Of a stretch of DNA of 64,000 nucleotides, positions 23,130 through 25,178 are shown piece by piece. The position numbers and the translations under genes are program-made. The notes under the pieces are model-generated. The model searched no databases. It was not told where the DNA came from and saw nothing but the letters and a program-made list of their open reading frames with translations. The stretch comes from Natribaculum luteum (lineage in GTDB: Archaea > Halobacteriota > Halobacteria > Halobacteriales > Natrialbaceae), in NCBI RefSeq assembly GCF_023008545.1, contig NZ_CP095397.1:2841199-2905198 (forward strand), in the 5' to 3' direction. How positions within the stretch are numbered: position 1 is the first letter of the stretch; every line of letters starts with the position of its first letter.

Positions 23130-23828
23130 TCACTCGAGCGGCAGCGCCGCCGCGTCGATCCCGTCTCGCCGGCCGTCGAGAACGGCAAAGCGCTCGTCGC
23201 GGCGGCACTCGAGCCAGTAGAGCAGGCGCTCTGCCCACTCGAGTTTCTGCGCTTTCATCGCGTCGACCGACGGGTCGTCGAAGTCCCAGCCGACGAACGC
23301 GAGACGGGCGGCCCCGAGGTGGTCGGCGAGGAAGGCGGCGCGGTCGCCGTCGGTGAAGCCGCCGAAGTTCCGGACCGGCCCACGGGGCTCGGCCTGCGTC
23401 GTCGGCAGGACGAACTCGTCGACGCAGTCGGGGACGACCGCACGGACTGCCGGGACGTTGTCTCCGTGTGCGTGGACGGCGACCGGCGTCCCCGTCTCCG
23501 TGAGCCGGTGAACCGTCCCCGGGTTCTTGTCCAGGTCCGTCACCATGCAGTCGACGCTCACGTCGTGGCGCTCGAGGACGTCGACCGCCGTCGAGGCGGC
23601 GACGACGACGTCGGCCTCGCGAGCGCGCTCGAGGGCGGCCCCGGACTCGAGTGAGGGTCCCGCGCCGGCGACGGCGACAGTCGCTCCCCGGATCGACGAG
23701 AGCGTCTCGAGGTCGAACGCTGTCGTCTGCGAGGCGAGGACGTCCCGCGCGCGTTCGTCCGCCGTGCGATCGAACCCGAACGACTCGAGGATCGTCTCGT
23801 ATACCGGTTCCCACTCGTCGAACTGCAT
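23130..23828 (-). CDS. mptE: 6-hydroxymethyl-7,8-dihydropterin pyrophosphokinase, MptE type
   Basis: A 232-residue member of the DUF115/MptE family. Recognisable parts are VAVAGAGPSLESG near residues 50-62, the CMVTDLDKNPGT stretch near 94-105, and NFGGFTDGDRAAFLADHLGA further on. Archaeal MptE transfers pyrophosphate to 6-hydroxymethyl-dihydropterin, feeding tetrahydromethanopterin or folate synthesis. Here it lies downstream of a dihydropteroate synthase gene in the same direction, which fits the next step in the path. The ORF ends about 107 nt before the DUF2196 gene. Confidence 0.87.
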   Translation of the reverse strand: MQFDEWEPVYETILESFGFDRTADERARDVLASQTTAFDLETLSSIRGATVAVAGAGPSLESGAALERAREADVVVAASTAVDVLERHDVSVDCMVTDLDKNPGTVHRLTETGTPVAVHAHGDNVPAVRAVVPDCVDEFVLPTTQAEPRGPVRNFGGFTDGDRAAFLADHLGAARLAFVGWDFDDPSVDAMKAQKLEWAERLLYWLECRRDERFAVLDGRRDGIDAAALPLE

Positions 23829-23875
23829 TCAGCTCCCTCCGTCGAGCGTCATGGTCGTCACTGTCGAGTTCGACG

Positions 23876-23974
23876 TCACAATAATTCCGTGTTGTGGGCC
23901 GGGGGACGCCTCCAAAGTACCCCTACCCGGGAGGCCGCCCGGCTTCCACACCCCTGTTTCGAATCCTCCGGCAT
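23876..23974 (-). other. 32-codon ORF or structured RNA between folP and mptE
   Basis: In the 156-nt gap between folP and mptE, an ATG 10 nt after the folP stop opens a frame of 32 residues reading MPEDSKQGCGSRAASRVGVL then WRRPPAHNTELL and TGA. The codon usage is odd for this genome (TTA, TTG, AGG, GTA). The same stretch is rich in short complementary G/C runs: GCCGG at its start against CCGGC about 70 nt on, and GGCGGCCTCCCGGG in the middle. A folded RNA, perhaps a regulatory element for mptE, is therefore equally likely. It looks too ordered to be plain spacer. Confidence 0.35.
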
Positions 23975-23984
23975 AAGCTTTCTC

Positions 23985-25178
23985 TTACCGGGTGCGTCGT
24001 TCGAGTTCGTCCTCGATCACCGACAGCCGGCCGTCTTCGTCCCGAATTCCGGCTGCCACGCGCTCGATTGCCGCCGTCGATCCGACCAGCAGCGACCGAC
24101 CGCTCGCGAGATCGATCCACACCGCGCCGCTCTCGCCTGCGACGCGCTCGAGGACGCCTCGCTCGTCTGCGGTCAGGCCGTCGATCTCGAAGGCGTGGTG
24201 GACCCAGTCGGCCGCCAGTTCGGGATCGACGTCCCGCTCGGCGAGGTGTGCGTGCAGCTCCCTCGTCGACCCAACGTCCAGCCGCGAGACCGTGACGTCG
24301 TCTCGAGTCGTCGTGGACTGCTCGGAAAACGCCGCTCCGATCAGGGCCGCGTCCCGCGTCTCGGCGACGTCGTGAGTGCGAATCACGTGTGCGCCACGCT
24401 CGACGGCCATCGACGTGGCCGCCAGGCTGACCGGCAGGCGCTCGTCGGTCTCGCGGTCGGCGATCTCGCCGAGGAAGTTCTTCCGGTTGATCGAGACCAG
24501 CATCGGCTTGCCGAGCGCGCGAAACTCCCGCAGGCGACGGAACGTCTCGCGGTCGTCCGCGAGCGTCTGTGCCTCGCTCCAGCCGCCGAAGGCGGGATCG
24601 ACGATCGTCTTCTCCGTGAGGCCGTTCTGTTTCAGCGCCTCGTAAACCATGTCGACGTAGTCGGCCTCGCGTACCCACTCCTCGCTCTTGCATTCGGCCC
24701 AGTCGGTCTCCTCGATCGCGCCCGGTCGTTCGAGGTCCGGCGGGCTGGCCATCTTGACGACGGCTGCGTCGTGCTCGTCACAAACGGTCGGCATCTCAGG
24801 GTCGGCGAAGCCACAGACGTCGTTGACCATATCGAATCCCTGCGAGAGCGCCTCGTCTGCGACGGCGGCGTAGCGCGTCTCGATCGAGAAGACCGCGTCG
24901 CCGGAGACGCTCTCGAGCGTCTCGATGGCGACGTGGAGGCGCTCGAGTTCCTGCTGGGCGGTGAGAACCTCGAAGCGTTTGTTCGCCGACTCGAGTCCCA
25001 CGTCGACGACGTCGGCTCCCTGGTCGATCAACTGTTCGTCGACGTAGCGGGCGGCCTCGCCGGGATCGTCGTAGACGCTCGGGTCGTACGGCGACTCCTC
25101 GCTGACGTTCAACACGCCCATGATCCGGGGCGGGTACTGGTCGCCGATCCCGAGCCCGGCCGCGTCGACGCTGTCCAT
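23985..25178 (-). CDS. folP: dihydropteroate synthase-family protein
   Basis: A 397-residue pterin-binding TIM barrel: MGVLNVSEESPYDPSVY near residue 20, DVVDVGLESANKRFE near residue 57, MVNDVCGFADPEM, IVDPAFGGWSEA and VERGAHVIRTHDVAETRDA. The last two are standard pterin-site strands. The usual GGESTRPG loop is replaced by GLESANKRF, and a C-terminal extension of about 120 residues follows the barrel. It sits upstream of mptE, so it probably joins the pterin pyrophosphate to an aminobenzoate-type partner. Haloarchaea also often carry a FolC-FolP fusion elsewhere, so this one may be a specialised paralog. Confidence 0.78.
   Translation of the reverse strand: MDSVDAAGLGIGDQYPPRIMGVLNVSEESPYDPSVYDDPGEAARYVDEQLIDQGADVVDVGLESANKRFEVLTAQQELERLHVAIETLESVSGDAVFSIETRYAAVADEALSQGFDMVNDVCGFADPEMPTVCDEHDAAVVKMASPPDLERPGAIEETDWAECKSEEWVREADYVDMVYEALKQNGLTEKTIVDPAFGGWSEAQTLADDRETFRRLREFRALGKPMLVSINRKNFLGEIADRETDERLPVSLAATSMAVERGAHVIRTHDVAETRDAALIGAAFSEQSTTTRDDVTVSRLDVGSTRELHAHLAERDVDPELAADWVHHAFEIDGLTADERGVLERVAGESGAVWIDLASGRSLLVGSTAAIERVAAGIRDEDGRLSVIEDELERRTR

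Follow-up and report, generated by a model that had tools for sequence, protein, structure and literature searches.

A putative small hairpin RNA gene with an invariant loop between folP and mptE in haloarchaea

Most of the studied haloarchaeal sRNAs are not conserved even between species. Among the 27 intergenic sRNAs deleted in H. volcanii, 22 were confined to one species (PMC3956466). The hairpin RNA described here, which lies between folP and mptE, resembles those sRNAs in being intergenic, short, non-coding (its reading frames are not conserved) and preceded by its own promoter motif. It differs from the 22 in its order-wide occurrence, covarying stem and invariant loop. Another point of comparison is HM42_V, a 58-nt intergenic sRNA on the minus strand of Haloferax mediterranei (CP001868.2, 1769366-1769424), between HFX_2905 and HFX_2904 (folP) (PMC5852579). 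Homology to a candidate sRNA of H. volcanii led to its discovery, and RNA-Seq reads from H. mediterranei back it (PMC5852579); each of the two species therefore has a counterpart. HM42_V adjoins folP, lies on the minus strand and is similar in size to the ~56–58 nt predicted for our hairpin RNA; 58 nt counted from the predicted start in Haloferax reaches just past the stem. Matched by neighboring gene, strand and size, and not by sequence, HM42_V is probably a member of the same family. Its expression had been listed, but its entry gave no structure, family, loop, function or order-wide conservation, and the structure, invariant loop, conservation, promoter type and paralogues were not described in the open-licence papers searched. 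An exact literature search with the 12-nt apical sequence found no paper.

The decoy sRNAs of the CsrA/RsmA system, RsmZ and CsrB, carry repeated invariant G-rich loops on variable stems. They offer an analogy in the way of working: invariant loops, variable stems and stand-alone RNAs, possibly with an mRNA leader in the present case. Unlike them, the haloarchaeal RNA has one hairpin per molecule and a different motif, and most genomes have a single recognized copy. The THF riboswitch and other folate-gene riboswitches in Rfam are likewise found beside folate or pterin genes. However, our RNA is a single hairpin with stand-alone copies, and covariance comparison with Rfam matched it to no riboswitch class or other family, even at E up to 5; no Rfam family was matched elsewhere in the window either.

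The folP-mptE gap in Natribaculum luteum

The window, that is, the whole 64,000-nt stretch of Natribaculum luteum DNA that was analyzed, contains a 156-nt gap between folP and mptE, both strands of which were examined. The identities of the two genes were confirmed with Pfam and NCBIfam. The features are listed below in the direction of transcription; R1 is the first covariance model of the hairpin.

23985..25178, minus strand: folP, dihydropteroate synthase, upstream neighbor (TIGR01496 above cut-off; PF00809)
23970..23987, minus strand: predicted promoter TAAGAGAAAGCTTATGCC, near-invariant among relatives, at fixed spacing from the hairpin, similar to promoters of stand-alone copies
23973-23981, minus strand: BRE/TATA AAAGCTTAT within the promoter
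23876..23974, minus strand: incidental 32-codon ORF, not a gene (ATG lost in 42/104 loci, frame broken)
23894..23949, minus strand: predicted small hairpin RNA, 56 nt (R1 match 77.8 bits; fold -33.2 kcal/mol; covariation in 24 divergent relatives; 192/243 genomes)
23917..23928, minus strand: invariant apical motif GGGUAGGGGUAC, unchanged in the stand-alone copies and in almost every mptE-linked copy
23879..23887, minus strand: A/T-rich GAATTATTG immediately past the hairpin, conserved in the own family, a candidate for the 3′ end of the RNA, for the TATA box of an mptE promoter, or for both; most stand-alone copies have a true U-tract close to this position
23853..23863, minus strand: CAGTGACGACC, matching the downstream motif YAGYGACRRC
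23130..23828, minus strand: mptE-like 6-hydroxymethylpterin diphosphokinase, downstream neighbor (PF01973 MptE-like, 69.4 bits)

The preliminary description had treated 23876-23974 as one unexplained unit. What it observed is real: a 32-codon ATG frame runs on the minus strand from 23974 to 23876, opening 10 nt past the folP stop codon, and folding of the segment confirmed long complementary G/C runs. However, these coordinates mix three things, namely the predicted promoter (23970-23987), a spacer that would not be transcribed and the hairpin RNA (23894-23949), and the frame is incidental. The folP stop codon (23985-23987, minus strand) forms the first three bases of the promoter, and the hairpin follows ~28 nt later.

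The same arrangement was seen in the aligned relatives. First comes a conserved block resembling a promoter, TAAGAGAAARCTTATRCC, in which the TAA often doubles as the stop codon of folP; a variable spacer follows, and then a hairpin with the apical sequence CGGGTAGGGGTAC. Save for stem length, the distance from promoter to loop was constant in 104 loci, which places the predicted transcription start at the base of the stem, at ~23949 (minus strand) in the window. As automatic finding of the stem base over-extends helices, we relied on clean cases together with this constant distance. A BRE/TATA-like motif at constant distance in 104 loci, with a similar one at stand-alone copies, is what is expected of an intergenic sRNA with its own promoter.

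Downstream of the hairpin, A+T content in 40 loci peaked at -30 relative to the mptE start. This base composition suggests that a separate promoter probably drives mptE in many loci. The motif YAGYGACRRC scored at least 8/10 in 74 of the 104 mptE-linked loci, compared with ~17% in shuffles; it was also found in 17 of 28 stand-alone loci, where the enrichment was weaker. It lies at a fairly constant distance past the hairpin, and in many families directly before the mptE start. We considered AGYGACRRC as a general companion of T-runs, but in a small sample it was not enriched after other T-runs.

Conservation and covariation of the hairpin

In the window copy, the stem comprises GUGG/CCAC, a 2-nt bulge (AA), GCCGGG/CCCGGC and then GCCUCC/GGAGGC (23930-23935 with 23908-23913). 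It is capped by a GGGG tetraloop (23920-23923) closed by GUA/UAC. Folded alone, the window sequence was only mildly above chance (z -1.3 to -2.5): the fold of the whole gap was unremarkable (z ~-1.4) and that of the 56-mer modest (-33.2 kcal/mol, z -2.5). Distant relatives reached z values down to -5.6. Constrained folds of 92 distinct relatives converged on a single long hairpin. Its base comprises UGG/CCA, a 2-nt bulge (usually AA, AC or AG) and GCCGG(AA)/(UU)CCGGC, above which come a mismatch, a variable upper stem and GUA/UAC closing the GGGG tetraloop.

Covariation was measured in 24 divergent sequences. Paired bases filled 92.0% of the cells, compared with 86.5% in shuffled alignments; both sides had changed in eight of the 21 pairs (shuffled mean 3.3), and the covariation score was 0.199 (0.106 shuffled). 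None of 500 shuffles reached the observed pairing, double-change and covariation values, and slid registers paired at most 44.4% of the cells. In some loci the stem was swapped while the loop was retained, as with GUCGG/CCGAC in L139 and GCUGACCCC/GGGGUCGGC in L147. The locus very likely encodes a structured RNA with its own promoter. Two loci of genus g61 (L172 and L169) appear to hold decaying copies, in which the stem is retained and the loop now reads GGATAGGGGCGTAT or GGGTAGGGGCAG.

By BLAST against the genomes of 61 relatives, identity over the first 108 nt of the gap was 80–97% for most of the own family; in other families of the order it was 75–78% over ~70–95 nt. With R1, hairpins turned up in 192 of the 243 genomes of the order (Halobacteriales), representing 58 of 73 genera. 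Almost every carrier had a single copy, between folP and mptE, and a better model, R2, recovered several hairpins that R1 had missed. Carriers include Haloferax (15 of the 15 genomes searched), Halorubrum, Haloarcula, Natrinema, Natrialba, Halorussus and Haloquadratum. Among 393 genomes from across the phylum, 72 matches were obtained, all inside the order; none was found outside it. Conservation of peptide or base pairing among relatives had been set as the test of the original observation, and the answer was divided: base pairing is strongly kept, but the peptide is not. Promoter, hairpin, covariation and order-wide conservation all support the structured or regulatory RNA that had been one of its options.

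An mptE start followed on the same strand in 103 of the 104 loci by automated start call; the remaining locus (L015) had a 244-aa ORF there. The distance from the loop to the mptE start ranged from 46 to 277 nt (median 76), and in Halorussus relatives and others it was only 46–48 nt. In genomes without the hairpin, mptE often directly abuts folP (f6/g34 and some g53) or lies elsewhere. Loci in which folP abuts mptE, with promoter and hairpin absent, are L136, L138, L141-L143, L146, L148 and L149 (g34) and L137 and L144 (g53). The g53 genomes without a folP-mptE hairpin still carry 2–4 stand-alone copies.

Copies of the apex at other loci

Additional copies of the loop were present at unrelated loci in at least five haloarchaeal families. 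Extra copies numbered 2–4 per genome in Halorussus and g53 and 1–3 in g52, and were single in Natrialbaceae, Haloferacaceae and f4 genera. Each is a compact unit: a similar promoter, ~30 nt, a hairpin that begins where transcription is predicted to start (for example ACCUCGGGUAGGGGUACACGAGGU) and usually a U-tract. The promoters read CACAAAGCATATA, CACAAGACATAT, GACAAGACATTTACC or CAGAAAGCTTTTACC, the last of which, in L193, L196 and L200, is almost that of the mptE-linked copies. Such units imply that the apex can exist as free RNA. In the stand-alone copies, the 8-nt interval 20–27 nt from the motif start contained 49% T; mptE-linked copies had ~30% T further downstream, and the window copy lacks a strong U-tract. 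No downstream or neighboring gene shared by the stand-alone copies was found.

Units with GGGUAGGGGUAC were recorded at L182-L185, L188-L191, L193-L200, L202, L204-L207, L210, L211, L213, L216 and L218, and further at L179-L181, L380, L384, L388, L389, L391-L393 and L396-L398. The motif lies ~800 bases into the 1.6-kb stand-alone loci and ~1500 bases into L179-L181. In genus g52 (L202, L205, L206 and L207), a copy is found ~100 nt upstream of a ThiF/MoeB-like gene, where it might likewise sit in a leader.

In the own genome, CGGGTAGGGGTAC occurred just once, counting both strands. A perfect GTAGGGGTAC was present at seven other sites of that genome, which for the most part seem to be coding and do not form the hairpin. 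One site, L225 (G000:C1:1449249-1449258, minus strand), lies behind an AT-rich stretch. We considered this site as a second copy; a GCCUGUC/GACGGGC stem is possible there, yet a different fold was preferred, and it was rejected. No exact ACCTCGGGTAGGGGTAC was found in viral contigs.

Competing readings and proposed mechanism

The reading that we favor, with moderate confidence, is that the locus is a small non-coding RNA gene. It would be the ortholog, retained across Halobacteriales, within a so far undescribed family of haloarchaeal sRNAs that carry the apex GGGUAGGGGUAC on variable stems. That the RNA is independent of its neighbors is likely in itself.

The hairpin might instead act in cis on mptE, as an attenuator in its 5′ UTR that resembles a riboswitch or is controlled by a protein and adjusts mptE expression to pterin or folate status. 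That it precedes mptE on the same strand in 103 of the 104 loci, and is absent where mptE abuts folP, also fits such a leader. In addition, the 46–48 nt between loop and mptE in Halorussus relatives leave no space for another promoter, so that there the hairpin seems unavoidably part of the mptE 5′ UTR. However, the intervening sequence is not conserved and varies in length throughout the loci, the A+T peak at -30 resembles a promoter in many of them, stand-alone copies of the loop have no common downstream gene, a short RNA has been reported in Haloferax (HM42_V, PMC5852579), and a single hairpin would be simple for a ligand aptamer. The stand-alone copies, the unconserved gaps, the A+T peak and HM42_V together favor an independent RNA, and we consider a leader of mptE unlikely as the whole explanation. 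The stand-alone copies at other loci also argue against an RNA that serves solely as a pterin leader; a role specific to pterin synthesis would be a candidate function.

Could the hairpin be merely a transcription terminator, or the 3′ hairpin of the folP mRNA? It is strong and lies downstream of folP, and the stand-alone copies end in U-tracts. Against this, a terminator would not be expected to have a promoter-like motif that is nearly invariant and set at fixed spacing, nor an unchanging 12-nt loop; several loci have no preceding gene on the same strand, and the window copy has no clear U-tract. That the hairpin is only a terminator seems very unlikely.

A modification-guide RNA (H/ACA or C/D box) or another known housekeeping RNA is highly improbable. 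In the own family, a short hairpin is indeed followed by ACA (CCCACAAC), but other families have CCAUAC or CUCAAG at this place, and the ACA box is absent in Haloferax and Halorussus relatives. Complementarity of the loop region to the own 16S and 23S rRNA was at the chance level of shuffled rRNA, by which rRNA was rejected as a target of the loop, and the Rfam search gave no match. ARAGORN found no tRNA match in the window. A likeness to a tRNA T-loop and acceptor on the plus strand (TTCGAATCC...CCGGCA) was rejected; that sequence is promoter and spacer, which vary.

The micro-ORF, leader peptide or microprotein of pterin synthesis put forward in the preliminary description for the 32-codon frame can practically be dismissed by the reading-frame test, as can a 40-codon GTG-start frame ending at the mptE start. 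Open frames do exist in the gap, and the peptide stays similar inside the own family owing to nucleotide conservation. However, the ATG of the 32-codon frame falls in the TATA region of the promoter and is ATA in 42 of the 104 relatives, and the remaining frames, with early stops and frameshifts, are 4 to at least 60 codons long. At the GTG position, a start codon is present in only two of the 104 loci, and hairpin length shifts by non-multiples of three between relatives. No start codon and frame conserved over the 104 loci was thus found.

Under the favored sRNA reading, the BRE/TATA promoter at the folP stop codon would start transcription at the base of the 56-nt hairpin, giving a transcript of ~58 nt whose 3′ end lies shortly past the stem. 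Because variation and covariation affect the stems but spare the loop and its closing pairs, the apex GUA-GGGG-UAC may be the working surface, with the stems as its scaffold. The single occurrence of CGGGTAGGGGTAC in the own genome and the chance level of rRNA pairing suggest that protein binding explains the fixed 10–12 nt better than pairing with rRNA or with a perfectly complementary target. The apex would then most likely be bound by a protein, and the RNA might act in trans or as a decoy titrating one factor. No target or binding protein was found, and we propose a loop-binding factor tentatively, at somewhat under even chances. In Halorussus and others with mptE 46–48 nt past the loop, the hairpin would also be present in the mptE 5′ leader, where it could tune expression.

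A broader possibility, which we regard as speculative, is a new class of archaeal regulatory RNA, in which the invariant GUA-GGGG-UAC apex is read by one dedicated RNA-binding factor. The folP-mptE sRNA and lineage-specific stand-alone copies, expressed from similar promoters, would serve this factor, and the pairing of promoter and loop would mark out a regulon linking pterin synthesis to other functions. An sRNA that covaries, occurs throughout the order and combines a fixed 12-nt loop with a definable promoter type and paralogues would give unusual access to a conserved RNA regulator in archaea. It can be tested in the model Haloferax, where every genome searched carries the hairpin. Annotation would gain a covariance model from it, and the RNA might serve as bait for an RNA-binding protein.
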